A stretch of DNA of 64,000 nt, from assembly GCA_021296065.1 (NCBI GenBank), contig JAGWBD010000012.1, positions 1 through 64,000 of the forward strand. The letters are read 5' to 3'. Shown here piece by piece: positions 47,583-64,000 of this stretch. The position numbers and the translations under genes were made by a program. The stretch comes from Anaerolineae bacterium (GTDB lineage Bacteria > Chloroflexota > Anaerolineae > Aggregatilineales > Phototrophicaceae). Each line of letters begins with the position of its first letter. Position 1 is the first letter of the stretch. The notes under the pieces are model-generated. The model was not told the origin of the DNA. It made no database searches and saw only the letters and a list, made by a program, of their open reading frames with translations.

Positions 47583-49175
47583 GTGTTAACGGTAGCCGAT
47601 GCCCTGCAACTGCCCGCCTTCGAAGGCGCTCGCCTGGTCGCCGGCGAGGCAGGTCGTATGCGCCCCATTCGCCAGGTCCACCCTGTCAGCGTGTCGGACG
47701 CCGCCCGCTGGCTAAATGGTGGCGAATTTATTCTGATCACCGCAATACTCCTGCCTGAAGACAAGCAGCAACAATTCACCTGGCTGAAGGCCCTCGTCGA
47801 CGTCGGCGCCGTCGGCATGGGGCTTGCCGTCGGCAACAGCATCGAAAGCGCGCCGGAAGCCTTGCGTCGGGCGGCGGGCCAGCACGACTTTCCCCTGGTT
47901 GAATTGCCCTCGCGCCTGCGCTTTGTCGATATCGCCCGCAGCGCCAACGAGCGCATCGCCCAGGAACACATGGCCCTGCTGCAGCGCGCCGTCACAATCC
48001 AGCGTGTGCTGACGCAACTGGTGCTGGATGGCGGCGACCTGCAGCAACTGGCCCACACCCTCGCCAGCCTCATTAACCAGTCCGTCAGCATCGAGAACAG
48101 CCGCTTCGTGGCGCTCGCCGGCGCCAACATCAGCACCTTCGACGAGGCGCGCCGCTATACCCTGCGCGAGGGCCGCACCGACCCGCGCCTTTTGCGCGCC
48201 CTGCGCGAGCGCGGCGACCTCGCCGCCATCCGCGACAATCTGCGACCGCTGGCCCTGCCGGCGCTGCCCCAAGTCGGCCTCGAGATGGAACGCATCCTCG
48301 CGCCGGTCGTTGTGCACGGCCACATCCGCGGCTACCTCTGGATCATCGCCGACGGCCGCCCCCTGACCGACATCGACCACATGGCCATCGAAAGCGGCGC
48401 CACCATCGCAGCCCTGATGATGCTGCACCAGGAAGTAGTGCAAAACGCCGAGATGTCCATGAAAGGCAGCTTCTTCGCGCGTCTGATTGAAGGCGATGCG
48501 GACCAGCTGGCCCTGTTAAGCGACCAGGCGATGCGCTTTGGCATCGACCTCAATGTCCCCTGGCGTCTGCTGCTGGTCGCCGCGCCGGAGCAGCAGCGCC
48601 AGCCCTCGCTGCAGGGCCGCATCCACCAGCTGGCCGCCAGCGAAGACTGGCCCGTGGTCGTCGGCCACTTCGCCGGCCAAACGCTGCTGCTGATGCCGGC
48701 CGACGAGGACTATGCCGCCCTTGCGTCGCAGTTGCGACGCCTGGCGCGCAATCTGCGCATCGCCGTCAGCGCCGCGCAGCGCGAGGTCGCCAGTATGCGC
48801 CTGGCCTGGGAGCAGTGTCAGCAGGCCCTGCAGATTGCGCGGCGCCTGGACCTGCCGCCGTTGACCGACCATGCGCAACTGGGCTACCTGCTCACCCTGT
48901 GGCAGGCCGGGCCGCAGGAGCTGGCGCGCAACCCGCACGTGCCGGCCCTGCGCCAGTTGCAGCAGGAACGGCAGGCGGAGCTTTTCCACACGCTGGAGAC
49001 CTGGCTGGACGCCGGCGGCAACAGCGTGCGCACGGCCCGCACCCTGCACATTCACCGCAGCACGCTCAACTATCGCCTGAAACGCATCCGCGAGATCTGT
49101 GGCAACCCCCTCAGCGAGCCCGCCGCCCGGCTGGACCTGCTGCTGGCGCTCAAGCAACTGCGCCTCTTCGGTTGA
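47583..49175 (+). CDS. PucR-family transcriptional regulator
   Basis: A 530-residue regulator. The N-terminal PucR ligand domain (about 1-125; TVADALQLPAFEGARLVAGE, then LADGGEFILITAILL-like) is followed by a central GGDEF-related region (about 270-420) and a C-terminal helix-turn-helix (LDAGGNSVRTARTLHIHRS, then TLNYRLKRIREIC). PucR members activate purine or amino-acid/aromatic catabolism genes; the target here is unknown, though the catabolic cluster at 54.8-64 kb is a candidate. It starts with GTG at 47583. Its last 22 codons (49107-49175) recur, slightly diverged, after the next gene. Confidence 0.9.
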   Translation: MLTVADALQLPAFEGARLVAGEAGRMRPIRQVHPVSVSDAARWLNGGEFILITAILLPEDKQQQFTWLKALVDVGAVGMGLAVGNSIESAPEALRRAAGQHDFPLVELPSRLRFVDIARSANERIAQEHMALLQRAVTIQRVLTQLVLDGGDLQQLAHTLASLINQSVSIENSRFVALAGANISTFDEARRYTLREGRTDPRLLRALRERGDLAAIRDNLRPLALPALPQVGLEMERILAPVVVHGHIRGYLWIIADGRPLTDIDHMAIESGATIAALMMLHQEVVQNAEMSMKGSFFARLIEGDADQLALLSDQAMRFGIDLNVPWRLLLVAAPEQQRQPSLQGRIHQLAASEDWPVVVGHFAGQTLLLMPADEDYAALASQLRRLARNLRIAVSAAQREVASMRLAWEQCQQALQIARRLDLPPLTDHAQLGYLLTLWQAGPQELARNPHVPALRQLQQERQAELFHTLETWLDAGGNSVRTARTLHIHRSTLNYRLKRIREICGNPLSEPAARLDLLLALKQLRLFG

Positions 49176-50611: not shown

Positions 50612-51934
50612 ATGCGTCGAAATCTGTTTGCCGGTCTGCTGTTCGCCATGGCGGCGCTGACCTTCTTCGGCCTGCTCCTGCCGGGCCTGTCGCTGGCCCA
50701 GGACGGGAGCGGGCTCTGGCGCGGTATTCGCGTCGCGCCCGAGAACCGCTGCTCGCCCTACGACCGCGACGACTACCGCTACTCCCAGTCCGTCGAACTG
50801 CGGATCATCGCGCGCGAGGGCAGCCAGATCTGCAGCCCCTACACCAACGAATGTTTCGCGTCACGCTCGGAAACCGACATCGAACACATCATCGCCGTCT
50901 CGGAGGCCCATGACAGCGGCCTCTGCGCCGCCAGCGCCAGAGTCCGGGCGCAATTCGCCTCCGACCTGCGCAACCTGACCCTCGCCTCGCCGGCGCTCAA
51001 CCGCTACCAGAAGGTCGCCAAGGACGCCGCCGACTGGCTGCCGGCGCAGAACCGCTGCTGGTTCGCCAACCAGATCATCACCGTGCGCCGCGCCTACGAC
51101 CTAAGCATCGACCGGCGCGAGGCCAACGCGCTGGACCGCGTCCTCGCTGCCTGCGAACCCGCCGTGGAAGCCAACCTGACACCGGTCCACCTGGTGGCGG
51201 GCAGCGGCACGGTGAATGCGCGCGCCTGCGCCGACACCGCCTGCGAACTGGTGACCCGATTCCAGGGAGGTCAGGCGCTGGACGTCATTGAAGAGGTGGA
51301 GGGCGTTGCCTGGCGCGGGGACTCGCGCTGGCTGAAAGTCCGGCATGAGGAAGACGAGGTCTACGTCCACGCTGCCCTGGTCCGCCTGGTCGCGCCCACG
51401 GTCACGCCCTGGCCGACGTCGACTCCCGCCCCTGGAAGCGCTCCCGTCGTCAACCCCAACCAGGCGACCACCCGCTACTACGTCGTCGCGCCGACCCACG
51501 CCAACGCCCGCAGCTGTCCGCAGACCACCTGCCGCATCGTCACCAGTTTCGCGCGCGGCAACGAAGTCGCCGTGCTGCAACGCGTGAGCGGCCAGTCGGT
51601 CAGCGGCAACTCGACCTGGCAGGCGGTGAAGCACGGCAGTCAGGTGGTCTACGTCCACGGCCCGCTGCTCTCCCGCAGCCGCCCGGCGCCGGTCAGCGCG
51701 CCTGCCAGACAGGCGGGTTCCAGAAAGGCGGGTTCCAGTCAGGGTCAGTCCGGTGCTGCGGCAGCGCAACCCACCGCGGTTCCCGGCCCGCAGTTCAGTT
51801 GCGACTGTTCGAAGTCCTGTTCGGCGATGGCCTCCTGCGAGGAAGCCCGCTTCCAGTTGAACACTTGCGGCTGCTCGCGCCGCGACAGTGACCGGGACGG
51901 CGTCCCCTGCGAAAGCATCTGCCCGGGCGGCTGA
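50612..51934 (+). CDS. Secreted HNH-type nuclease with two SH3b domains and an excalibur-like C-terminus
   Basis: A 440-residue protein. Signal peptide 1-29. The nuclease domain (about 35-180) has [17 protein letters not shown] (His92), LRNLTLASPALNRYQK and DWLPAQNRCWF, the layout of GmrSD/DUF1524-type HNH nucleases in secreted form. Two SH3b domains follow (about 192-262 and 285-355), then a Cys-rich excalibur-like segment (about 397-440; CDCSKSCSAM, DSDRDGVPCESICPG) that in other proteins binds calcium. It probably degrades extracellular nucleic acid while attached to the wall. GGGGAGAACC precedes the ATG. Confidence 0.82.
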   Translation: MRRNLFAGLLFAMAALTFFGLLLPGLSLAQDGSGLWRGIRVAPENRCSPYDRDDYRYSQSVELRIIAREGSQICSPYTNECFASRSETDIEHIIAVSEAHDSGLCAASARVRAQFASDLRNLTLASPALNRYQKVAKDAADWLPAQNRCWFANQIITVRRAYDLSIDRREANALDRVLAACEPAVEANLTPVHLVAGSGTVNARACADTACELVTRFQGGQALDVIEEVEGVAWRGDSRWLKVRHEEDEVYVHAALVRLVAPTVTPWPTSTPAPGSAPVVNPNQATTRYYVVAPTHANARSCPQTTCRIVTSFARGNEVAVLQRVSGQSVSGNSTWQAVKHGSQVVYVHGPLLSRSRPAPVSAPARQAGSRKAGSSQGQSGAAAAQPTAVPGPQFSCDCSKSCSAMASCEEARFQLNTCGCSRRDSDRDGVPCESICPGG

Positions 51935-52050
51935 GGTCCCGGAAAATGTAAGTGGACCCTGACAGCTCTCCCGGCCTGAAACCCGCACTCATACCGACGC
52001 GCCGCTTCGCGTACAATGGCGGGCCGTTCGTCGCTGCAAGGGAACATGCC

Positions 52051-54090
52051 GTGATTCGCTATTTCGCAATCCTGCTTCTGGCGCTGATCGGCGCCGGCGC
52101 GCTGCAGGCGCAGGACCGCTGGCTCGGCCTGGTGGTCACGCCCGAAGCGCGTTGCGCGCCCTTCAACCCCGCTGACTATCCCGTCCCCGCGGTCCCTGAC
52201 TCGCCATCGATCGATGATGAGGCCAGGACGCTTTGCAGTCTCTACACAAACCAGTGCCGCGGCGCGAACCAGGACCTGCTGCTCGATCCCGTCATCCCCC
52301 TCGCCGAGGCGCATGACAGCGGCCTCTGCGCCGCCGACGGCGAGACCCGCAGCGCCTTCGCCGCGGACCCGCTTAACCTGGCCGTCGCCGTCCCCGGTAC
52401 CCTCCTTGAACAGAAGCGTGACCTGGACGCCGCCGACTGGCTGCCAGCGCGCAATCGCTGCTGGTACGCCGAAACCGTCGTCCGCGTGCGCCAGGCCTAC
52501 GGCCTGAGCATCGACCTGCCGGAAGTGGACGCGTTGATCGAGGTGCTGACCCGCTGCATCGTTGAGAACGCCCGTTTCCGACCCGGCGAGTACGTCGTCA
52601 CGGGCAGCGGCGCGGTGAATGTGCGCGCCTGTCCTGCCATCGGTTGCACCATCGTCACCAGGTTTGTCGAGGGCCAGTTGCTGGAAGTTACCGGGCAGCT
52701 GACCGGCGTGCCCCTGGGCGGCGAGCCACGCTGGCTGAAACTGCGTCACGCCGAAAGCGAAGTCTATCTGCATTCTTCGCTCGCCGAACCCTACCTGCCC
52801 GACGGGACGCCCACAGCGCCGGTCCCGGTCCAGGCGTCGGTGGCCGACACTGCCCGGACGACCACGACCATGTACGTCGTCGCTTCACGTTTTGCCAACG
52901 CGCGCAACTGCCCGGATACCAATTGCGCCATCGCCAACAGCTTCCCGCGCGGCGCGGAAGTGGCCGTCCTGCAGCGCGTCACCGGCCAGGCCGTGAACGG
53001 CATTGCCGACTGGCAGGCGCTGCAACACGGGGACGAGGTGCTATACGTCCACGCCCCCCTGCTCTCGCGCAACAGGCCCGCGCCGCTGGCGCCAACGCCG
53101 GTACCAGTCCCGCCGCAGCAAGGGCAGGGTCCGGCCCGTGTCAGCGCGCCGGCGATCGGCGGCGGCTTCGAGCTTGGCGGCCAGGCCCTCGGCTTCACCT
53201 CTCCGCAACACATGCACGCGGCGCGTATGACCTGGGTCAAGCGCCAGGTGCGCTATCACCGGGGCGACAACCCCGCTGACGTCCAGTGGGTCATCGGTCA
53301 GGCGCATGGCGCCGGTTTCAGGGTGCTGCTCAGCATTGTCGGCGAGCCCGGCCAGATGGCGCCCGACCCGGCGGGCTATACCCGCGATTTCGTCAGCTTC
53401 CTCGCGGGCGTGGCGGCTCTGGGGCCGAACGCCATCGAGGTCTGGAACGAACAAAACATTGACCGCGAATGGCCCAACGGCCAGATCAACCCCCAGGCCT
53501 ACACCGCCATGCTCAGAGACGCCTGGAATGCCATCAAGGGCGCCAACGCCAACGTGATGGTCATCAGCGGCGCCCCCGCCCCCACCGGTTTCTTCGGCGG
53601 TGGCTGCCATGCTTCCGGGTGCGATGACCTGCCCTTCATCCGCGGCATGGCCGCGGCCGGCGCCGCCAGTTATATGGATTGCGTCGGCGTCCATTACAAC
53701 GAAGGCATCCTGCCCCCTGATGCCCGCAGTGGCGACCCGCGCGGCAACAGCGGCCACTACACCCGTTACTACTCGCGCATGTTCGAAGTTTACGCCGCTG
53801 CTTTCCCGGGCAAGCCGCTCTGCTTCACCGAACTTGGTTACCTCAGCAGTGAAGGTTACGGACCCCTGCCTGGCGGTTTCGCCTGGGCCGCCAACGTGAG
53901 CGTCGCCGACCAGGCCGCCTGGCTCGGCCGCGCGGTCACGCTGGCGCGTAGCAGCGGCCGTGTGCGACTCTTCATCGTCTGGAACGTCGACGCCACCCGC
54001 TACGACTCCGACCCCCAGGCCGGCTTCGCCATCGTGCGCCCCGACGGCACTTGCCCCGCCTGCGGCCACCTGGCAGCAGCCATGGGTTGA
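52051..54090 (+). CDS. Secreted fusion: decayed HNH domain, two SH3b domains, glycosidase-like barrel
   Basis: A 679-residue protein. Signal peptide 1-20. The N-terminal domain aligns with the nuclease of the preceding gene ([24 protein letters not shown]), but its DIEHIIAV segment has become LLLDPVIPL, so the catalytic histidine is gone. Two SH3b domains follow (about 195-260 and 285-350). The C-terminus (about 365-679) is a close paralogue of the barrel in 39187-40803, with WNEQN and LCFTELGYL glutamates conserved. It probably acts as a wall-anchored glycosidase. Start is the GTG at 52051 after AAGGGAA; TACAAT at 52012-52017 is a possible -10. Confidence 0.82.
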
Positions 54091-54185: not shown

Positions 54186-54689
54186 ATGACGAGCAGCGAT
54201 GACCTTAACCAGCGCATCGGCGTGCTGACGCGCCGCGAGACCGAGGCGCGCATCCTCGCGCCGCTGATCGACGCCCTCGGCGAGGAATTCGGGCGCGAAC
54301 GCGTGCTGGAGGTCCTGCGCGAGGCGATTATCGACATTGCGCGGCAGCAGGGCGCGGCCATGGCGGAACAGACGGACGATACCGACCTCGACGCCTTCGC
54401 CGATACGCTGCCCGCCTGGCAGCAGGACGACGCCATGCGCATCGAGACCCTGCGCCAGGACGACGAGGCCTTCCACTTCAACGTGACGCGCTGCCGCTAT
54501 GCCGAGATGTACCGCGCCCTGGGCATCCCGGAGCTGGGCGCGCTGCTCTCCTGCAACCGCGATTTCGCGCTGATCGAGGGCTTCAACCCCAACGTGCAGC
54601 TGGAGCGCACGCAGACCATCATGCAGGGCGCGACCCACTGCGATTTTCGTTATGCGTTGCCTGGACGGGACAGGCCCGCAGACCCGTAA
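54186..54689 (+). CDS. L-2-amino-thiazoline-4-carboxylic acid hydrolase-like protein
   Basis: A 167-residue protein resembling the ATC hydrolase family (PF14196 type), which opens the thiazoline ring in the route to cysteine; most relatives have unproven substrates. Family-like segments are [40 protein letters not shown] with its conserved cysteine, and [17 protein letters not shown] at the end. The ATG has GGAGAG six bases before it. It has its own promoter and stands just before the NicX-like cluster, so it could be part of the same nitrogen-compound pathway (inference). Confidence 0.75.
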
Positions 54690-54823
54690 AACGCCTCACC
54701 ATCCCTTCCATCGCCAGACCGGCGCCTGCCTTTTGATGCGACGACGCCCCTGTAACGGCAACCACCGCCACGACCCGGCCCACGCAGGGCAATTCGGATT
54801 CCCTGCGGCTTCGTGCTATCTTA

Positions 54824-54832
54824 CGACGCACA
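54824..54832 (+). promoter_or_regulatory. Extended -10-like promoter for the first NicX-like gene
   Basis: TGCTATCTT is 27 bases before the GTG at 54860. The 170-base gap between the genes (54690-54859) otherwise shows no gene. Confidence 0.4.
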
Positions 54833-54859
54833 TATCGAAATTCTTTCAGGAGATGAAAC

Positions 54860-55918
54860 GTGGTCGAATCACTGGCTCTGGATTATTCAGCAAGTACCCA
54901 ACTGGTCGACATGTTCCGCCGGCACCTAAAACTGTGCAAGGTGCATGCGGGCGAACACGTCCTCATCCACACCGATCCGGGCAGCTACCCCCATTACGCC
55001 GCCGCCTACATGGGCGCGGCCATTGAACTCGGCGCCGACGTTTTCCAGATCGTGCACCCCAACCGTGAGGAAAAGGCGGTCATCGACGCCTGGAAACGCG
55101 CCGACCTGGTCATCGACGTCTCCTCCGGCCCCCATGCCTACGGCCACATCATGCGCGAATCGATGGACTCCGGCACGCGCCTGCAACGCATCGGCGTGGC
55201 CGTCAACACCATGCGCCGCCTCTTCCCCACCCAGGAACTGCGCGAGCGCGTCCTCGCCGGCCAGGAACTCATGAAGAACGCCAAAACCATGCGCATCACC
55301 TCGCCCGGCGGCACTGACCTCACCTTCTACAAGGAGGGGCGCGACCCGATGGGCATCTACAGCGTCTCCGACGTCCCCGGCCGCTGGGACATCTGGCCCA
55401 GCGGCATGGTCTGCTGCGCGCCGGAAGAGCACAAGGGCGGCGGCGTGCTGGTGCTTTCGCCGGGCGACTACATGCTCGTGATCAACCAGTATGTGAACGA
55501 CTACATTTATCTGGAGATGAACGACGGCCGCATCACCGACATCAAGGGCGGCATGCAGGCCGAATTGCTGAAGCGCTGGTTCGCCCAGTTCAACTCCGAG
55601 GATTCCTACCGCATCGCCCACGTCGGCTGGGGCTGCGAGCGGCGCGCCAACTGGCTCATCCCGGGCCAGGACAACGAGTGTATGTACGCCAACATGCAGA
55701 TCGCCTTCGGCTCCAACCTCGGCATCTTCAAGGGCGCCACAACCCTCACCAATTCGCATATCGATTTCCCCAGCCTCAACAACAGCTACTGGGTGGATGA
55801 CATCCAGATCATGGAGAACGGCGAATTCCTGCTTGACGAACTGCGCCACAAGGGCGACGTCGGGATCACGACCGAAACCGGTGGCACCCAGACCGGCCAC
55901 GGCTCCCGTCCAGGTTGA
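54860..55918 (+). CDS. NicX-like (2,5-dihydroxypyridine 5,6-dioxygenase family) protein, copy A
   Basis: A 352-residue protein of the NicX/M29-related family. NicX opens the ring of 2,5-dihydroxypyridine using Fe(II); its metal triad is one His and a later His-x-Asp. The same pattern is visible here in RIAHVGWGCERRANW and NSHIDFPSLNNSYW. The N-terminal half (HAGEHVLIHTDPGSYPHYAA) is the Rossmann-like lobe. It starts with GTG at 54860 after CAGGAG. Two paralogues lie within 5 kb. Family members also include aminopeptidase-like proteins, so the reaction is uncertain. The M24 peptidase gene follows after 12 bases. Confidence 0.75.
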   Translation: MVESLALDYSASTQLVDMFRRHLKLCKVHAGEHVLIHTDPGSYPHYAAAYMGAAIELGADVFQIVHPNREEKAVIDAWKRADLVIDVSSGPHAYGHIMRESMDSGTRLQRIGVAVNTMRRLFPTQELRERVLAGQELMKNAKTMRITSPGGTDLTFYKEGRDPMGIYSVSDVPGRWDIWPSGMVCCAPEEHKGGGVLVLSPGDYMLVINQYVNDYIYLEMNDGRITDIKGGMQAELLKRWFAQFNSEDSYRIAHVGWGCERRANWLIPGQDNECMYANMQIAFGSNLGIFKGATTLTNSHIDFPSLNNSYWVDDIQIMENGEFLLDELRHKGDVGITTETGGTQTGHGSRPG

Positions 55919-55930
55919 CCGGGTTGAAGC

Positions 55931-57061
55931 ATGGCCACGTCCAACCAGCCCTTTGACTACGCATTGCGCTGCCAGCGGGTGCGCGAAGGCCTGCGCAATG
56001 CCGGCATCGATGCCCTGCTCGTCGGCCCGTCCAGCGATCTTTTCTACCTGATCGGACTGAACCGGCCGCAATCCGAGCGCCTGACGCACTTCATCCTGCC
56101 CGCCGCCGAAGATGAGACGCCGCGCCTGATCCTGCCCTCCTTCGAGACGGCCCTGGCGGAGCCCCTGGCGCATTTCTTCGACCTCGTCCCCTGGGAGGAG
56201 ACCGAAAGCCCCTTCGAGCGTTTCGCCGACTCCCTGCCCGCCGCAAGGTCCGGGCAGCAGTTGCGCCTGGCCGTCGCCGACCAGATCTACGCCCACTTTC
56301 TCTATCGCCTGCAGGCCGCCGCACCACAGGCTGAATTTGTGCCCGGCGGCAATCTGCTCAACCCCATCCGTATGGTCAAGGAAGCGCGCGAACTCGACTA
56401 CCTGACCCAGGCCGGCGCCGCCGCCGACCGCACGTACATGGCCCTGCTGCAGCTGCCTCTCACTGGCATGAGCGAAGCGGAGGTCAAACAACAACTGGTG
56501 GCGCTTCTGCCGCAACACGGCCACGACCCCGGCGCGCCAGCCGGCGCCATCGTCGGCGTCGGCGAGAATGGCGCCTCGCCGCACCATCACGTGGGCCCGC
56601 GCCGCATTGCGTCCGGGGATGCCGTCGTCGTCGATTTTGGCAGCACCGTGAATGGCTACTGGTCCGACATGACCCGCAGCTTCCACGTCGGCCCGCCATC
56701 GGACGACTATCGCCGCGTCTACGACGTGGTCAACGAAGCCAACCAGGTGGCCTTCGAGGCCATCCGGCCCGGCGTCACCGCCGAATCAATCGACGCGGTC
56801 GCCCGCGCCCACATGACAGCCGCCGGCTATGGTCACGGCATCCTGCATCGCACCGGTCATGGCCTCGGTTTTGACCTCCACGAAGCGCCCTACATCGTGA
56901 GCGGCGACACCACCGTCCTGCGCGAGGGGATGGTCTTCAGCGTCGAGCCCGGCATTTACCTCAAGGGCCGCTTCGGCGTGCGCATCGAGGACATCGTCAC
57001 CGTGACGGCCGACGGCGCGCGGCGCTTCAACCACAGCACGCACGACCTGCAGGTCCTGTGA
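55931..57061 (+). CDS. M24-family metallopeptidase (Xaa-Pro dipeptidase/creatinase-like)
   Basis: A 376-residue pita-bread-fold protein. An N-terminal creatinase-type domain (1-130; LRNAGIDALLVGPSSDLFYL) precedes the catalytic domain with the five metal ligands: Asp in VVVDFGSTVNG, Asp in YWSDMTRSF, His in RTGHGLGFDLHE, Glu in VFSVEPGIYL and Glu in VRIEDIVTV. All five are present, so a dinuclear metallopeptidase is expected, cleaving X-Pro peptides or a small amide. It overlaps the next gene (GTGA) and is probably in one transcript with the first NicX-like gene. Confidence 0.92.
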   Translation: MATSNQPFDYALRCQRVREGLRNAGIDALLVGPSSDLFYLIGLNRPQSERLTHFILPAAEDETPRLILPSFETALAEPLAHFFDLVPWEETESPFERFADSLPAARSGQQLRLAVADQIYAHFLYRLQAAAPQAEFVPGGNLLNPIRMVKEARELDYLTQAGAAADRTYMALLQLPLTGMSEAEVKQQLVALLPQHGHDPGAPAGAIVGVGENGASPHHHVGPRRIASGDAVVVDFGSTVNGYWSDMTRSFHVGPPSDDYRRVYDVVNEANQVAFEAIRPGVTAESIDAVARAHMTAAGYGHGILHRTGHGLGFDLHEAPYIVSGDTTVLREGMVFSVEPGIYLKGRFGVRIEDIVTVTADGARRFNHSTHDLQVL

Positions 57062-58152
57062 CCATGGGCGCCATCGAACGCGTCCTGGTCATGGGCGCCG
57101 GCCCGGGGGGGATGGCGGCGGCCGCCGCCCTCTCCCGCCGCGGCTACCACGTCCACCTCTACAACCGCAGTCCCGAGCGTATGGCGGCCGTGCTCGAGCA
57201 GGGTGGCGTCGCCATCGAAGGGGACCTGATTGGGGGGGATGAAACCGAAGAGCTGGTGCCGCTGGCCCTCATCAGCACCGACGTCGCCGCCGCCATGGAG
57301 CACGTCGAACTGATACTCATCGCCGTGCCCGCCTACGGGCAGAGGGCGATGCTGGAGGCCTGCCTGCCCCACCTGCGCAGCGGCCAGATCATCCTCCTGC
57401 TGACCGGCTCGGCCGGCTCGCTGGAACTGGCAATGCTGCTGCGCGATGCCGGGCACAGTCTGGATGACGTCCTGCTGGGGGAAACGGTCACCCTGCCGCA
57501 ATCGGCACGCATGGTCGCGCCGGGCAAGCTACGCATTCGTCTGCCCTCAAACCTGCGCTTCTCGGCCTTCCCCGGCCGCAACACCGAAGCGCTGCATGAT
57601 CGCCTCGGCGATACGCTGCGCCTGATCCCCAAACCCAACGTGCTGGATCCCGGCCTCAACAACCCCAATTTCATGATTCACCCCGCGCCGATGCTGCTCA
57701 ACTACGCCGCCGTCGAGCGCCAGGATGGCTACCTTTCCATCATGAACGAGGGGATGACGCCCGGCGTGTTGCGCCTGCTGGACGCCGTCGACGAGGAGAA
57801 AATGGCCCTGCAGCGCGCGCTGGGGCTGGACGTCGTCCTGATCGATGACCTTTACCGCGAGACGGGCAGCGGCCCGCACGTCTATCGCGTGCAGGGCGAG
57901 CCCTTCAACCTGCGCGACCGCATCTGGGACCGCTATATCACCGAAGACGTCCCCTACGGTTCCGTGCTCTATTCAGCGATAGGGCGTTTGCTCGACGTGC
58001 CGACCCCCGTCAACGACAGTATCAACCACATCTTCTGCGTGACGGAAGAAGAGGACTACTGGGCGACGGGACGCAACGCCGACGCGCTGGGCGTCGCCGG
58101 CATGAATCGCGAAGCGTTGTTGCACTACCTGGAAACTGGCGAACGTCTTTAG
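57058..58152 (+). CDS. Octopine/opine-dehydrogenase-family NAD(P)-dependent oxidoreductase
   Basis: A 364-residue two-domain dehydrogenase. A Rossmann motif VLVMGAGPGGMAAAAALS opens the protein, and the C-terminal helical domain (HPAPMLLNYAAVERQDGYL onward) is that of the NAD/NADP octopine/nopaline dehydrogenase family, which reduces or oxidises C-N linked amino/keto acids. The GTG at 57058 overlaps the stop of the peptidase gene; an ATG six bases later is the alternative. Opine-type chemistry fits a pathway that handles nitrogen-containing conjugates (inference). Its end converges with the second NicX-like gene. Confidence 0.85.
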   Translation: MTMGAIERVLVMGAGPGGMAAAAALSRRGYHVHLYNRSPERMAAVLEQGGVAIEGDLIGGDETEELVPLALISTDVAAAMEHVELILIAVPAYGQRAMLEACLPHLRSGQIILLLTGSAGSLELAMLLRDAGHSLDDVLLGETVTLPQSARMVAPGKLRIRLPSNLRFSAFPGRNTEALHDRLGDTLRLIPKPNVLDPGLNNPNFMIHPAPMLLNYAAVERQDGYLSIMNEGMTPGVLRLLDAVDEEKMALQRALGLDVVLIDDLYRETGSGPHVYRVQGEPFNLRDRIWDRYITEDVPYGSVLYSAIGRLLDVPTPVNDSINHIFCVTEEEDYWATGRNADALGVAGMNREALLHYLETGERL

Positions 58153-58182
58153 CGCAAGCGGGGACTGCAACCGCAGCCGCAC

Positions 58183-59229
58183 TCAATCGAGCGTAATGTG
58201 CGCCAGTTCCGGGTGGACGAAGCGCCCGTTCTCCGTGACCGGCTCGCCATCCAGCCAGATGCTGTGCGCCAGGCCGTTGAAATCGATGTGGGCGACCACG
58301 TCGTTTGTGCCGTCGCCAATGTACCAGGAGGTATCGCGCCCGAAGGCGATCTGGAAGACGCCCGGGTAGGATTCCGCGTCGCCGATGCCGCCGGTCGGTC
58401 CGGCCATGCGCCCCCAGTCGGCGCGTTCGTCGCAGCCCCAGCCGACGTGCGAAATGTGGTACGCGCGCTCGTCACCCCAGCTGGCGAACCAGGTGCGCAG
58501 CAAGTGCGCGTCCAGGCCCTCGCCCTCAATGCGGGTGATGATCCCTTCCTCGATGAGGATATCGATGCGCGTGGTGGCGTAGCGCCGCATGCCGAGAATG
58601 ATGTCGCCGACGTCGATGACCAGCCGCCCGTTGCTGTTGGGGCGGTTGGCGCCACCAACAACGACCGCCACCGACCAGTGGTCCCACTTGCCCGGCTGGT
58701 CGGCCGCGCCCCAGAGCCCGAAGGCCTGGCGCTCCGCGGTATTCAACACCAGGTCCGTCCCGGCCGGCGAGGTCGCCCGCAACTCGCGCGCCCCGGCCAG
58801 CAGCGCTTCGCAGCGATTGACACGGTCCCGCAAGGCGGTCTGGGGCCGCAGGCGCGACAGCACGTCCTCCGGCTGGGTGACGCGCAAGACGCGCACCCCC
58901 GCTTCCAGCGCGCTGACCCGCAGGGGCCGGTAAATGCTGGTTCCGATCGATTCCAGGTCCACCACCAGATCGACCGCGTGCCAGATGTCCCACACCGGCC
59001 CGGAGAGAATGTCGCCGCCCTCCGTGGGCACTTCCAGTTGAAAGACGTCCGCGCCCAGGCCCTGGGCCGCCGCCATGGACGCCTTGGCGTAGTGCATCGG
59101 GCTGTGGTGGTCGCAATAGACCATCACGCGCTCGCCCTCACGCAGCTGGCACAGCTCAAGCGTGTGCCGGAAGAGCGGGATCAGGTCCGTCAGCGCCCCG
59201 CCGGAATCGCGATAGGTCCAGTGAAACAT
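58183..59229 (-). CDS. NicX-like family protein, copy B
   Basis: A 348-residue paralogue of the genes at 54860 and 59336. The metal triad pattern is kept (YHISHVGWGCDERADW and VAHIDFNGLAHSIW). It is the most diverged of the three, with a distinct N-terminus (MFHWTYRDSGGALT) and differing loops (GGANRPNSNGRL). It lies on the opposite strand to the rest of the cluster and is divergent from copy C, sharing a 106-base intergenic region that could co-regulate both. The specific substrate is unknown. Confidence 0.73.
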   Translation of the reverse strand: MFHWTYRDSGGALTDLIPLFRHTLELCQLREGERVMVYCDHHSPMHYAKASMAAAQGLGADVFQLEVPTEGGDILSGPVWDIWHAVDLVVDLESIGTSIYRPLRVSALEAGVRVLRVTQPEDVLSRLRPQTALRDRVNRCEALLAGARELRATSPAGTDLVLNTAERQAFGLWGAADQPGKWDHWSVAVVVGGANRPNSNGRLVIDVGDIILGMRRYATTRIDILIEEGIITRIEGEGLDAHLLRTWFASWGDERAYHISHVGWGCDERADWGRMAGPTGGIGDAESYPGVFQIAFGRDTSWYIGDGTNDVVAHIDFNGLAHSIWLDGEPVTENGRFVHPELAHITLD

Positions 59230-59335
59230 GAATCCCCCCGCCCTTGCCCGCCTGACCGCCAGGGTGTCGGTTTGCGGTGGTCAGTTGTGCATGAGTATAG
59301 TCCCTGTCCGGGAGCGAACCAACGGAGAGGCAAAC

Positions 59336-60358
59336 GTGAAAAAATTTCCCTTAAATTACAGCGCGTCGACCGAACTGATTCCACTCTTCAAGCGCAGTTT
59401 CGAACTCTGCAATCTGCGCGCAGGCGAGACCCTGCTCATTTATTGCGACACGCATACCTCACCGCATTATCCGGCCGCCGCGCTGGGCGCGGCCATCGAC
59501 CTGGGCGTGGAGGCCTTTCAGGTCACCGTGCCCACCACCGTGCCGGAAAACGACAAGGGCGTCATCGCCGACATCTGGGCCAGCGTGGACATGGTGATCG
59601 ACCTGGTCAGCACCGTCGCCCATGCCTATTCGCTGCTCAACGCGGCGGCACTTGAGAATGGCGGTCGCGTCCTCCGTTGCGGCCAGCCGCAGGATGTGCT
59701 GATGCGCCTGGCGCCCGACCCCGTCATTCGTCGCCGCGCCCTGGCCGGCGCCGACCTGCTGCGGGTGGCGGAAACGATGCGCGTCACCTCCGCCATGGGG
59801 ACGGACCTGAGCTGCAACGTCAAGGACCGCGTGGTCCTCGGCCTCTACAGCCTCGCCGACGAACCCGGCCGCTGGGACAACTGGCCGAGCGGCATGGTCA
59901 CCGTCGGCCCGGATGAATACAGCGCCAATGGCACACTGGTGCTCGACGTCAATGACGTCATCCTGCGCCTCGGGCGCTACGTCACCTCACCGGTGAAGAT
60001 GACCATCCGCGACGGCCTGATCGTCAAAATTGATGGCGGTCTGGACGCGCGCCTGCTGGAGGACTGGTTCTCCGCCTTCAACGACGAGACGGCCTACCGC
60101 ATCGCCCACATCGGCTGGGGTTGCGAGCACCGCGCCGACTGGAACCGCATGGGCGCCTACCTGATGGAAGGCGCCGTCCAGGACCAGGAGGCCTTCTACG
60201 GCAACATGCAGATCGCCTTCGGCGCCAACACCGCCATCTTCGAGGGGCAGAACGTCTCAAAGGCGCACATGGACTTCCCCTGTCGCAACAAGAGCATCTG
60301 GCTCGACGACCTGCAGGTCATGGAAGCCGGCCAGTTCCTGATCCCCGAGTTGCAATGA
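59336..60358 (+). CDS. NicX-like family protein, copy C
   Basis: A 340-residue paralogue closest to copy A. Triad pattern: RIAHIGWGCEHRADW and KAHMDFPCRNKSIW. I choose the GTG at 59336 because GGAGAGG lies five bases before it; the earlier ATG at 59228 starts in the divergent promoter region. A TATAGT (59296-59301) with TTGCGG at 59272-59277 is a weak promoter candidate. Its stop overlaps the aminotransferase start (ATGA), so the two are probably translated together. Confidence 0.75.
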   Translation: MKKFPLNYSASTELIPLFKRSFELCNLRAGETLLIYCDTHTSPHYPAAALGAAIDLGVEAFQVTVPTTVPENDKGVIADIWASVDMVIDLVSTVAHAYSLLNAAALENGGRVLRCGQPQDVLMRLAPDPVIRRRALAGADLLRVAETMRVTSAMGTDLSCNVKDRVVLGLYSLADEPGRWDNWPSGMVTVGPDEYSANGTLVLDVNDVILRLGRYVTSPVKMTIRDGLIVKIDGGLDARLLEDWFSAFNDETAYRIAHIGWGCEHRADWNRMGAYLMEGAVQDQEAFYGNMQIAFGANTAIFEGQNVSKAHMDFPCRNKSIWLDDLQVMEAGQFLIPELQ

Positions 60359-61551
60359 AGGACGGCGGCGCTCCCCCACCCCTGCCCTACCGACGCCTCA
60401 ACCCGCCGGAACGCACCCTGCTCGGCCCGGACCTGAGCAACGCCTCGCCGCGCGCGCGCCAGGGGCTTATCGGCGTCCTCGAAGGCGCCAACGACCCCGG
60501 CTTTCTGGCCGTGCTTGATGAAGCCATCGCGCGCCTGCGCCAGCTCTGGCGCACGGAGAATGAAGACTCTTTCCTGGTCCCCGGCTCAGAAGAGACCGCG
60601 CTCGAAGCGGCCCTGCTGAACGCCCTGCAGCCAGGCGAAACCGCCGTCGTCGCCATCAGCGGCTTCTTCGGCGAGCGCCTGGCCGAGGCCGCCGAACGCT
60701 GCGGCGCGAAGGTGGTGCGCGTCGTGGCGCCGCCGGGCGAGGCCGTATCGCCGGCGGCCCTTGAAGAAGCCCTCAACGGCCAGGAGACGCGCCTGCTGGC
60801 TACCCTCCATGGCGACGGCTCGACCGGCATCCAGCAGCCCCTGGCCGGCCTGGGCGACCTGGCGCACGCGCACGACGCCCTGCTGCTGGTCGATTCGCGC
60901 TGGACGATCAGCGCCGTCGACGTGCCCCACGACGAACTGGGCATCGACGTCGGCGTCGCCGGCAGCCAGAAGGCCATCAGCGCCTACCCGGGCCTGGGCC
61001 TGATCACTTTCAGCCAGCGCGCCGCCGCCGCCCACAATGCCCGTCAGCGACCCGTCGCCAGTCCCTCGCTGGATCTGGCGCAACTGCGCCGCTTCCGCGA
61101 AGAGGAACGCGCCGCCCAGACCATGCCCGCGCCGATCGTCTACGCGCTCACCGAGTTGCTGCAGCTGATTTCCGAGCAGGGCATGGCATACCGCGCCAGC
61201 CGCATGGTGAACCGACGCGATGCCCTGGTCGCCGCCTTCGCGGAACTGGGGCTCTCCGTCCATGCCCGGCCCGCCTTCCGCCTGCCGACCGTAACCGCCT
61301 TCAAGGTGCCCGCCGGCATCGACGCCGACGCCATCCGCCAGCAGTTGCTGGCCCCCTACCGCATCGACATCGGCGGCGGCCTGGGCGAATTGCGCGGCCT
61401 GGTCTGGCGCGTGGGCGTGCTCGGCCATTCCGCCCAGCCGACCTTCCTGCTGGCCCTGGTCACGCTGCTGGAAATTCTTCTGGAAGAGGCCGGACACAAT
61501 GTCCGCGAACGGGGCGCGGCCGGGCGCACCCTGCTCAATAACCTGGACTGA
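60355..61551 (+). CDS. Class V (fold-type I) PLP-dependent aminotransferase-like protein
   Basis: A 398-residue protein of the alanine-glyoxylate/serine-pyruvate aminotransferase group. The cofactor lysine is in GVAGSQKAISAYPG; LLLVDSRWTISAVDV gives the PLP-ring aspartate and the start PPERTLLGPDLSNASPR is family-typical. Such enzymes move amino groups between small amino and keto acids such as glyoxylate or pyruvate. It is coupled to the third NicX-like gene by an ATGA overlap, which ties it to the same pathway (inference). Confidence 0.88.
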   Translation: MKDGGAPPPLPYRRLNPPERTLLGPDLSNASPRARQGLIGVLEGANDPGFLAVLDEAIARLRQLWRTENEDSFLVPGSEETALEAALLNALQPGETAVVAISGFFGERLAEAAERCGAKVVRVVAPPGEAVSPAALEEALNGQETRLLATLHGDGSTGIQQPLAGLGDLAHAHDALLLVDSRWTISAVDVPHDELGIDVGVAGSQKAISAYPGLGLITFSQRAAAAHNARQRPVASPSLDLAQLRRFREEERAAQTMPAPIVYALTELLQLISEQGMAYRASRMVNRRDALVAAFAELGLSVHARPAFRLPTVTAFKVPAGIDADAIRQQLLAPYRIDIGGGLGELRGLVWRVGVLGHSAQPTFLLALVTLLEILLEEAGHNVRERGAAGRTLLNNLD

Positions 61552-61579
61552 TACGAGAGAACACGGGAAAGGAAATTTA

Positions 61580-62710
61580 ATGAAAATCACGCACGCCGAA
61601 CTGATTCTGACCAGGGTGCCGACCGTACGCACGCACCGCATGTCCTTCGCCACCACGCGCCACCAGGAATGCGTCTACCTGCGCCTGCACACCGACGAAG
61701 GCATCGTCGGCCTCGGCGAGGCGCCGCACATGGCCGGCTTTTCCGGCGCCGGGGAGACGCAACTGACCGTCGCCCTGCAGCTGCGCGAGCGATTGTTGCC
61801 CGCCGTCCTCGGCAAGGACCCGCGCGAGATCGAGGCCCGTCAACTGGACATGGACCGTGCTTTACCCTGGAACCCGCGCGCCAAGAGCGTCGTCAACATC
61901 GCCCTCTACGACATCGTCGGCAAGGCCCTGAATACGCCGGTCTACAACCTGCTGGGCGGCCTGTACCGCGACCGCATCCCGCTCAGCTGGTCGATCCCCA
62001 TCACCGACCACGACCACGCCGCCGAAGATGCCGAAACGGCCCTCTCGCGCGGCATCCGCATCCTCAAGATGAAGACCGGCCACGAAGACCCCGACCACGA
62101 CATCGAACGCACCCGTCGCGTCCGCAGCGTCGCCGGCGACGCGGTCCGCCTGCGCGCCGACGCAAACCAGGCCTGGGACGTCAACACGGCCATCTACGTC
62201 ATTAACGCCCTCGCCGAAAGCGGCCTGGAATTCATGGAGCAGCCGGTCAAGGCCTGGGACCTGGACGGCATGGCCGAGGTGCGCCGCGCCACCAACACCT
62301 ACATCATGGCGGACGAGGGCGCCAACTCGCCGCGCGACGTCTTTGAACACGCCAGAAGGCGCGCCTGCGACCTGATCAGCGTCTACATCAACAACGGCGG
62401 CGGCATCATCAGCGCCAAGAAGATGGCCATCGTCGCCGAGCCGGCCGGCATCGGCTGCTACGTCGGCGGCGCGCTGGAGGGGGCCATCGCCTCACGCGCC
62501 TGCCTGCACTTCGCCGCCTCGACGCCCAACGTCACCTGGGGCTGCGAAATGGGCGGCCAGTTCCTGCTCGAAGCCGACCTGAGCGCCGAGCCCGTCCCCC
62601 TTGAAGATGGCGCCATGGTCGTGCCGCAGGGCCCCGGCCTCGGTGGCGATCTGGACCCGGCTCTGGTCGCCCGCTACCAGAGCGATTTCTTCGAAGTCCA
62701 CCCGGCCTGA
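61580..62710 (+). CDS. Enolase-superfamily enzyme (mandelate racemase/muconate lactonizing type)
   Basis: A 376-residue protein with capping domain and TIM barrel. Second-strand base motif KxK is LKMKTG; metal ligands are Asp in RADANQAW, Glu in FMEQPV and Asp in IMADEG. The sixth-strand lysine of the MLE group is absent: the segment reads SVYINNGGGI where SIKI..GG is usual, and no MR-type His-Asp pair is obvious. So the second catalytic base is missing or replaced and the reaction may be a one-base dehydration or epimerisation. GAAAGGAAAT precedes the ATG. Confidence 0.87.
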   Translation: MKITHAELILTRVPTVRTHRMSFATTRHQECVYLRLHTDEGIVGLGEAPHMAGFSGAGETQLTVALQLRERLLPAVLGKDPREIEARQLDMDRALPWNPRAKSVVNIALYDIVGKALNTPVYNLLGGLYRDRIPLSWSIPITDHDHAAEDAETALSRGIRILKMKTGHEDPDHDIERTRRVRSVAGDAVRLRADANQAWDVNTAIYVINALAESGLEFMEQPVKAWDLDGMAEVRRATNTYIMADEGANSPRDVFEHARRRACDLISVYINNGGGIISAKKMAIVAEPAGIGCYVGGALEGAIASRACLHFAASTPNVTWGCEMGGQFLLEADLSAEPVPLEDGAMVVPQGPGLGGDLDPALVARYQSDFFEVHPA

Positions 62711-62743
62711 GTCGGCCCGGATATCCCCCGAAAGGAGCGTCAG

Positions 62744-63748
62744 ATGCGTTTCGGTTTCGGTTTTGTGCCCTCCCTGCCGCCGGCGGACAGCCTGCGCGTG
62801 GTCCGGCTCGGCGAGCGTCTGGGCTACGAGATGGCCTGGATCCCGGACCAGACTTTCTACCGCGATCCCTTCGTGGTGATGGCGCAATGGGCGCAGGCGA
62901 CGGAAAACATTGAGCTGATGATCGGCGTCACCAACCCCTACACGCGTCACCCGGCCCAGGTCGCCCGCTCCATCGCCACCGCGGACGAAATCAGCGGCGG
63001 CCGCGCCAATCTGGGCATCGGCAGCGGCAACCGGCGCGAGCTGCTGCTGCCCATGGGCCATGAGCAGGACGCCGCCGCGGCCCGCACGCGCGAGATGCTG
63101 ACCCTGGTGCGCGCCCTCCTGCAGGGGGAGACCCTGCAGCACGAGTCCGCCTACGTCACCGCCAAAGACCTGCAGCTGACCTGGCGCCCCGGGCGCGCGG
63201 ACATCCCGATCTACATCGCGGCCCGCGGCGCGCGCATGCTGGCAGCGGCGGGCGAACTGGCCGACGGCGCGGCCATCGGCGCGCTGGTCTCCGAAGACGG
63301 GCTGGATTACGCCTTTGGCGCCCTGCAACGTGGCGCGGCCAGCGCCGGCCGCAACCTGAAGGACCTGGAAATCGTCAGCTGGGTCACCTGCCGCGTGGTC
63401 GATGACGAAGAAGCGGCCCACGAACGACTCAAGCCCTCCGTGGCCCACATCATCGGCGGCGCGCCGCTCTCGCTGCTAAGGGCCATCGGCATGCAGGAGG
63501 ATGCGATCGCCGATCTGAAACGCGCCTACGCCGCCGGCGGCCCGGCCGGCGCCGCGCCCCTGGTCACCCGGCGCGATATCGACATGCTGACGATTGTGGG
63601 CAACGCCGCGAGCGTGTGCGCAACCTGCGAGCGCCTGGCGGCCCGCGGCGTCGATCAAATCGGCATCCTGCTGACAGGCGCTGACGCCGACAGCAATTGC
63701 CAGGTGCTGGAACGCATCGCCCGAGACGTGATGCCGCACTTCGTGTAG
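62744..63748 (+). CDS. LLM-class flavin/F420-dependent oxidoreductase (Mer-like)
   Basis: A 334-residue luciferase-like TIM barrel. The signature ISGGRANLGIGSGNRRELLLP and the opening LGERLGYEMAWIPDQTFYRD resemble the methylenetetrahydromethanopterin reductase-like branch that commonly uses F420. The end segment AARGVDQIGILLTGADAD is family-typical. It follows the enolase-family gene by 33 bases with an AAAGGAG site, and is likely in the same transcript. Substrate unknown; the cluster suggests a step in nitrogen-compound or aromatic breakdown. Confidence 0.86.
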   Translation: MRFGFGFVPSLPPADSLRVVRLGERLGYEMAWIPDQTFYRDPFVVMAQWAQATENIELMIGVTNPYTRHPAQVARSIATADEISGGRANLGIGSGNRRELLLPMGHEQDAAAARTREMLTLVRALLQGETLQHESAYVTAKDLQLTWRPGRADIPIYIAARGARMLAAAGELADGAAIGALVSEDGLDYAFGALQRGAASAGRNLKDLEIVSWVTCRVVDDEEAAHERLKPSVAHIIGGAPLSLLRAIGMQEDAIADLKRAYAAGGPAGAAPLVTRRDIDMLTIVGNAASVCATCERLAARGVDQIGILLTGADADSNCQVLERIARDVMPHFV

Positions 63749-63776
63749 TGCGCCGCTCTTTCGCCCTTGCAGGAAC

Positions 63777-64000
63777 GTGAAAGACCAACAACGCAACACC
63801 CTGCCGCCGCGCCATACCTTGCTGCTCGCGCTGCAAATGGCCGCCGAGCAGACCCTGCTCTACGGCATCGTGCTCTTCGATGCCGTGCTGGCCGGGCAAC
63901 TGGGCGTTGACCCGCTGGCGGCCCAGGTCGTCGTCGCCCGTCTGGTGGCGATGACCGCGGTCCTCTTCCAGATCACCGCGATTGGCGGCTCGATCCTGGT
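63777..64000 (+). CDS. N-terminus of a probable NCS2 (xanthine/uracil-type) permease, cut by window edge
   Basis: A GTG at 63777 with AGGAA just before it (spacing short) opens 74 codons to the window end. The sequence LLLALQMAAEQTLLYGIVLF then LGVDPLAAQVVVARLVAM has the amphipathic/hydrophobic pattern of the first two helices of NCS2 nucleobase permeases. Such transporters import purines, pyrimidines or related heterocycles by proton symport, which would suit a cluster that degrades heterocyclic nitrogen compounds. The assignment rests on a short stretch, so it is tentative. Confidence 0.5.
   Translation, partial: MKDQQRNTLPPRHTLLLALQMAAEQTLLYGIVLFDAVLAGQLGVDPLAAQVVVARLVAMTAVLFQITAIGGSIL

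Follow-up and report, generated by a model that had tools for sequence, protein, structure and literature searches.

Three NicX-fold proteins in a conserved gene island of Anaerolineae, tentatively linked to import and breakdown of a peptide- or opine-like compound

The locus described here raises the question of why a bacterium should keep three genes resembling NicX, the 2,5-dihydroxypyridine (DHP) 5,6-dioxygenase of Pseudomonas putida KT2440, among genes for peptidases and a peptide-type importer. The window, that is, the whole stretch of 64,000 nucleotides that was analysed, corresponds to positions 1–64000 of contig C149 in an Anaerolineae draft genome (G000; 2.8 Mb, 85% complete), and the contig extends past it, to 73734. 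The three genes, nx1, nx2 and nx3, which together with their clade are called NX in this text, are the only relatives of their kind found in that genome. The answer favoured here, tentatively and with slightly less than even confidence, is that they belong to an island for the import and breakdown of a peptide- or opine-like compound, in which a new subfamily of NicX/M29-fold proteins, with a mononuclear metal site, performs hydrolase-like chemistry.

At E 1e-5, NicX was the sole match of nx2 and nx3 among solved structures; nx1 found NicX at 8e-40 and, besides it, weak antibody matches only. An AlphaFold model of nx3, built from 14 sequences of the window and related ones (mean pLDDT 83), aligned to NicX (7cn3) with Z 37.0 over 327 residues and to the M29 proteins AmpT, AmpS and PepS (2ayi, 1zjc, 4ics) with Z 20–22. 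A profile of M29-like Chloroflexota proteins finds NicX (1e-23) as well as the M29 structures (7e-15 to 1e-9), and it matches the NX profile with E 2e-38. Since these profile matches and the alignments of the nx3 model connect them, NicX, M29 and NX form one superfamily. An earlier report had found no structural homologue matching NicX over its full length (PMC7910607), and the literature yielded nothing on point on M29 together with pyridine dioxygenase. In addition, CgnE and CgnB (6zsu, 6zsv), proteins of the crocagin pathway for a ribosomally synthesised and post-translationally modified peptide, align to the nx3 model at Z 13–14, with unrelated folds next, below 10; given this alignment, the superfamily may serve peptide natural-product pathways too.

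Residue counts were taken from a family alignment with 30 NX-clade, 17 NicX-clade and 26 M29-like rows, the last picked for having Glu where AmpS has E253 and E319; the rows are related to each other, and the counts are not independent events. Numbering is that of NicX unless AmpS is stated, and residue roles follow PMC7910607 for NicX and PMC7023490 for M29. His265, His318 and Asp320 are present in 30/30 NX-clade and 17/17 NicX-clade rows, nx1, nx2 and nx3 included. Thus, the sequence-only reading, made before this analysis, had rightly recognised three NicX-like copies with a His and a His-x-Asp pattern (7cn3 at E 8e-40, 7e-45 and 2e-54), whereas its Fe(II)-type triad stands for these three residues and not for their surroundings: Ser302 is replaced by Ala, Arg293 by Glu, and Glu177 is lost in all copies. 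Indeed, position 302 is Ser throughout the NicX clade (17/17) and Ala in 27 of the 30 NX-clade rows, while position 293, Arg in 14/17 of the NicX clade, is Glu in 30/30 of the NX clade versus 0/17; nx1–nx3 all have Ala and Glu. Glu177 occurs in 9/17 NicX-clade rows and in none of the 30 NX-clade rows, residue 177 being Ile in nx1 and Leu in nx2 and nx3, and position 189 is Ile, His and Asn, respectively, in the three copies. Conversely, Tyr105 is fixed in the NX clade (30/30 versus 0/17), as are Trp91, Asp32 and Arg172, and the two clades are fully distinguished by fifteen alignment columns. In a maximum-likelihood tree of 80 rows, nx1–nx3 belong to a clade with support 98/95, whose sister is the NicX clade (100/99).

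In NicX, Ser302 serves as fourth iron ligand, Arg293 belongs to the second shell, and His105, Glu177 and His189 bind DHP; most of these DHP-binding residues are missing from nx1–nx3. The S302A and R293A substitutions each abolish iron binding and activity of NicX, activity is likewise abolished in E177A/H189A, and Arg293 lies next to Asp320, about 4 Å from the bound ring (PMC7910607). There is, accordingly, little doubt that NX proteins are not DHP dioxygenases. Because Glu293 and Ala302 are usual in the M29-like group as well, they probably represent the older state, with the NicX residues derived. On the M29 side, the ligands E253, E319 and H348 (AmpS numbering) are replaced and H381 and D383 are kept, which argues for a single metal site in NX; equivalents of E253 and H348 are absent from both NX and NicX, and H348 is present in all 26 M29-like rows.

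The three genes stand in a block of 15, running from nx1 to an SBP_bac_5 importer, which comprises three NicX-fold proteins, three M24 peptidases, an opine dehydrogenase-like protein, an aminotransferase, an enolase-type protein, two Mer-like luciferase-like (LLM) proteins, a MATE exporter and the DppBC and SBP_bac_5 components; the ATPases of the importer are not among its genes. The features are as follows.

54780–54859, plus strand: upstream region of nx1, with a promoter-like TATCTT (moderately conserved) and a ribosome-binding site AGGAGA (four-genome alignment, by eye)
54860–55918, plus strand: nx1, NicX-fold (phmmer to 7cn3, E 8e-40)
55931–57061, plus strand: M24 peptidase of prolidase / Xaa-Pro peptidase type (PF00557, 2e-58; PF01321)
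57058–58152, plus strand: opine dehydrogenase-like protein, Octopine_DH (PF02317, 1e-26; 1bg6, E 2e-38)
58183–59229, minus strand: nx2, NicX-fold (7cn3, E 7e-45)
59230–59335: divergent intergenic region of nx2 and nx3, with a promoter-like stretch for nx3 (four-genome alignment, by eye)
about 59336–60358, plus strand: nx3, NicX-fold (7cn3, E 2e-54)
60355–61551, plus strand: class V aminotransferase, alanine-glyoxylate / ureidoglycine-glyoxylate type (PF00266, 1e-20; 1vjo, E 2.5e-71; PucG 3isl)
61577–62710, plus strand: enolase superfamily, muconate cycloisomerase / dipeptide epimerase subgroup (PF13378, 2e-56; 3i4k, 1jpm)
62744–63748, plus strand: LLM oxidoreductase, F420 / Mer type (PF00296, 8e-59; Mer structures, E 6e-46)
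63777–65102, plus strand: MATE exporter, of which the window holds the 5' end to 64000 (PF01554, 1e-44)
65133–66341, beyond the window: M24b peptidase
66341–67435, beyond the window: M24c peptidase, 48% identical to the M24 peptidase of the window
beyond M24c, minus strand: LLMb, the second LLM protein
beyond LLMb, minus strand, ending near 72346: DppC, DppB and the SBP_bac_5 protein

The mechanical open reading frame of nx3 begins at 59228, but the start conserved among the genomes is the GTG at 59336, which comes with a ribosome-binding site. The genes named by the sequence-only reading, together with the GTGA (57058–57061) and ATGA (60355–60358) overlaps, were all found about where it had placed them; what it had taken for a possible nucleobase-type permease is, however, most likely the MATE exporter starting at 63777.

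The order of the 15 genes is identical in the source genome, in two further genomes of its genus (G347 and G348) and in G394, which belongs to another genus. Because the genes outside nx1 and the SBP gene in G394 differ from those of the other genomes, the block has natural borders there. The trio was found in 4/98 genomes of the family, and the block is present in all four; the nx1 orthologues in L001–L003 are at 87–95%. The dN/dS ratios (Nei-Gojobori) of 0.06–0.23 across eight window genes indicate that these are maintained by purifying selection, nx3 being the most constrained (0.06–0.08, with 0.09–0.11 for nx2 and 0.11–0.15 for nx1). A sigma-70-like TTGCGG, an 18 bp spacer and TATAGT are conserved 5' of nx3 in the four-genome alignment, as judged by eye and with no test against chance; the promoter-like stretch 5' of nx1 is, again by eye, less clearly conserved. 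The island probably constitutes one catabolic unit, and the single pathway first suggested from the overlaps gains support from the same gene order in four genomes of two genera with differing flanks. PucR at 47583, which had been put forward as a possible regulator, lies outside the conserved block, and no support for PucR control was found; it was also discarded as a part of the system, with a partial match upstream in G347 (38–39% over about 100 residues) and none seen around the G394 block.

The nearest other records are metagenome-assembled genomes, namely Anaerolineaceae bacterium RHO3_bin_8, COS1_bin_10 and Chloroflexi bacterium CO36387bin_22, which we take to be of sponge origin from their isolate names and from general knowledge of such genomes. 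The block-bearing Anaerolineae are probably sponge symbionts.

On the reading favoured here, a peptide- or opine-like N-substituted amino-acid compound would be taken up by SBP/DppBC, as suggested by the families of these proteins, and would be cleaved by the M24 peptidases, whose five metal ligands (D, D, H, E, E) are intact in the window copy and in both others. The NX proteins would then have a metal-activated water attack an amide or related C–N bond, with Glu293 as the base; hydrolysis or lyase chemistry is favoured, and each copy may be tuned to a different intermediate. Finally, the opine dehydrogenase, the epimerase-like enzyme and the aminotransferase would yield keto acids, the predicted end products being amino acids and keto acids. 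A mononuclear site to which a Glu is added recalls mononuclear metallohydrolases, and Glu293 should lie near the metal or the substrate because Arg293 of NicX sits next to Asp320, near the bound ring. Counted in favour of a peptide-type substrate are the intact M24 ligands, the occurrence of SBP_bac_5 and DppBC near NX genes, and the opine dehydrogenase found beside a Dpp importer elsewhere. Of the earlier suggestion of a nitrogen heterocycle or an amide conjugate, the amide half therefore fares better, given three intact M24 peptidases and the importer, whereas a DHP-type route finds its partners absent from the block. In its widest form, proposed with reserve and at less than even odds, NX would make up a third class, by function, within the NicX/M29 fold: proteins with a mononuclear His265/His318/Asp320 site plus Glu293, neither aminopeptidases nor pyridine dioxygenases, which in probable sponge symbionts act on an imported amino-acid-derived compound by opening or cleaving it, and which have repeatedly expanded into trios beside peptide-type importers.

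The wider distribution of the clade bears on this last point. NX-clade genes were found in 17/396 genomes of the class, plus G331 and G348; matches on plasmids were all below 60% identity, and those placed in the tree fell in the NicX clade. In genus g310, ten genomes carry three tandem NX-family genes. In the two loci inspected (L097 and L106) the genes after the trio encode Dpp-type permeases, ATPases (with the oligo_HPY domain tested in L097) and SBP_bac_5, and the last NX gene overlaps dppB by one base; an FCD regulator precedes the trio in L097. L004 (Chloroflexota CSMAG_1213) has two NX genes with an FCD regulator, an SBP gene, DppBC, a double creatininase and AroM, and G595 and G331 each have one NX gene with a LacI-type regulator (named by eye), an SBP gene, DppBC and an ATPase. 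SBP_bac_5 genes occur in these genomes at densities between one per 98 kb and one per 315 kb, from which the chance of an SBP neighbour in an inspected stretch is estimated at roughly 6–26% per locus; on this estimate, which is not a formal test, it is unlikely that peptide-type importers stand beside NX genes in four separate lineages by chance. As to the further neighbours in L004, the creatininase gene (L004:10372-11964) encodes a tandem protein with two creatininase domains, and aroM lies at L004:12762-13442, both beside the NX genes and the importer.

Several points weigh against the proposed peptide- or opine-like route. In G443 and G468, the NX gene has no such importer as a direct neighbour; SBP_bac_5 importers are common (23 in 2.8 Mb) and carry more than peptides. 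The general-base role suggested for Glu293 derives from the published place of Arg293 in NicX and not from coordinates of its own, and no assay of an NX-clade protein was found. Oxygenase chemistry also stays conceivable, because the iron triad is retained and the nearest relative of known function is a dioxygenase that cleaves a ring with O2.

This last argument leads to the main rival, which we regard as unlikely, if still to be taken seriously: NX proteins might be Fe(II) ring-cleaving dioxygenases for other hydroxylated rings, with the enolase, LLM and aminotransferase proteins processing the ring-opened products. NicX is the best match by both structure and sequence, the His265, His318 and Asp320 ligands are invariant in the 30 NX-clade members, muconate cycloisomerases are the closest relatives of the enolase protein, and sponge Chloroflexi are believed to attack aromatic compounds (PMC6306507). 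However, all three copies have Ala and Glu at the positions of Ser302 and Arg293, without either of which NicX binds no iron (PMC7910607), and they lack Glu177; moreover, the block has no ring-hydroxylating enzyme, and it contains three peptidases and a peptide-type importer. The gene context of genuine NicX loci differs too. On annotated plasmids, NicX-clade genes adjoin genes for an alpha/beta hydrolase, an isochorismatase-type amidohydrolase, an Asp/Glu racemase and a hydroxylase; true NicX genes stand with genes of NicD/E/F type. In G038, a Chloroflexota NicX-clade genome used as positive control, a maleamate amidohydrolase relative (46%) was found on the same contig. No NicE or NicF relatives were found in G000 (with its 85% completeness), G347 or G348, the genome-wide search having covered these two and not NicD; the DHP pathway was rejected on the missing NicE/NicF partners.

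It is also conceivable, with a rather low probability, that nx1–nx3 form one hetero-oligomer in which not all subunits are catalytic, so that the island would encode one enzyme of this kind and not three. NicX itself is a hexamer, and tandem trios have arisen twice, in this lineage and in g310, from separate expansions in the tree; furthermore, the middle copy of the g310 trio has lost Asp320 in 10/10 sequences. Against this stand the position of nx2 on the opposite strand, with its own promoter region, and the retention of the triad in all three copies of the present block. The g310 middle copy is itself unusual, having His in place of Ser302 and Gly in place of Asp320 in all ten sequences (L072:2562-3650 on the minus strand, L075:392-1480 on the plus strand, and eight orthologues); judged from its residues, it would have either a three-histidine site or the role of a dead subunit.

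Ordinary M29-type aminopeptidases acting on generic peptides, one of the cases that the sequence-only reading had named as fatal to its proposal, are a very remote prospect, because residues of the M29 metal site have been lost. Similarity to the M29 fold (Z about 21, and the profile–profile match), relatives annotated as "leucyl aminopeptidase" and the peptidase neighbourhood would fit such a role; nevertheless, three of the five metal ligands are gone (E253 and H348 lost, E319 changed to His), none of nx1, nx2 and nx3 matches PF02073, the Pfam M29 family, at its gathering score, and a generic M29 peptidase was rejected on the missing ligands. Hardest of all to credit is the idea that the catabolic genes are unrelated and only loosely grouped, as often happens in SAR202-like Chloroflexi whose enolase and LLM families are expanded. 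SAR202 is known for expansions of its enolases and flavin monooxygenases (PMC6946804, PMC5395668), but here the genes overlap and the order of 15 genes is kept between genera with different flanks.

The other enzymes of the island can be placed by their nearest relatives. The opine dehydrogenase-like protein has the PF02317 domain together with an NAD-binding Rossmann domain, and NFMIHP and TEDVP stretches are present, as read without residue-by-residue alignment to 1bg6. For the aminotransferase, these are alanine-glyoxylate and ureidoglycine-glyoxylate aminotransferases. The enolase-superfamily protein comes closest to muconate cycloisomerases and to L-Ala-D/L-Glu epimerase, and its TIGR02534 score of 290.8 bits is below the curated cut-off of 334.95. 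The closest relative of the LLM protein is Mer, which depends on F420, and the F420 biosynthesis gene cofD is present in the genome. A creatinase-type function of the M24 protein was rejected for this block, every metal ligand being present; the genes next to M24 relatives on haloarchaeal and Thermomicrobium plasmids were uninformative. Upstream of the block, an ATC hydrolase family protein (PF14196, 4e-43) at 54189–54689 directly precedes nx1 in one genus and is unmatched beside the G394 block, and the window has two adjacent bacterial SH3-domain proteins (50612–51934 and 51952–54090), one with a weak GH113-like part and both with relatives in other genomes of the genus.

Profiles and the model thus tie NicX to the M29 aminopeptidases, and a sister group, NX, keeps part of each active site; this offers a testable case of a two-metal peptidase fold becoming a one-metal oxygenase. 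It is also a warning against best-hit naming of such proteins as "leucyl aminopeptidase" or "2,5-dihydroxypyridine dioxygenase". The island itself points to a nutrient that Chloroflexota associated with sponges may obtain from their host or from its community. An opine supply by the sponge host is only a guess; sponge-type opine dehydrogenases are another protein family (PMC4575208).

Compared with known systems, NX shares with NicX (7cn3, 7cup) the whole fold, about 34% identity and the three metal ligands; it differs by Ala for Ser302, Glu for Arg293, Ile or Leu for Glu177 and Tyr for His105, NicX His189 being retained in nx2 only, and the block differs from NicX loci in having no NicD/NicE/NicF partners. 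With the M29 aminopeptidases (AmpS 1zjc, AmpT 2ayi, PepS 4icq) it shares the fold (Z about 20–22) and the second-metal ligands H381/D383, whereas the first-metal ligands E253 and H348 are absent and the bridging E319 is His in all NX-clade members. The M24 proteins resemble prolidases and Xaa-Pro peptidases in combining Creatinase_N and Peptidase_M24 with five metal ligands, but here three copies occur in a single block. Rhizobial plasmid clusters offer a further parallel: in Neorhizobium NCHU2750 an opine dehydrogenase lies next to a Dpp importer and hydantoinases, and on plasmids of Shinella WSD5-1 and Aminobacter SR38 it adjoins an enolase-type and an M24-family gene; unlike the island, these clusters show no NicX-fold gene, and the Shinella M24 ligands are degenerate. 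The Shinella/Aminobacter cluster (L112:4371-14133, L113:339-14134) also contains amidohydrolases, an isochorismatase and a tautomerase; its link to the island is only one of analogy, the gene types being shared but with 27–33% identity and a degenerate M24. N-(1-D-carboxylethyl)-L-norvaline dehydrogenase (CENDH, 1bg6), the nearest solved relative of the island's opine dehydrogenase, belongs to the same family over nearly its full length (E 2e-38), the difference being that the present protein is a member of an importer/peptidase island.

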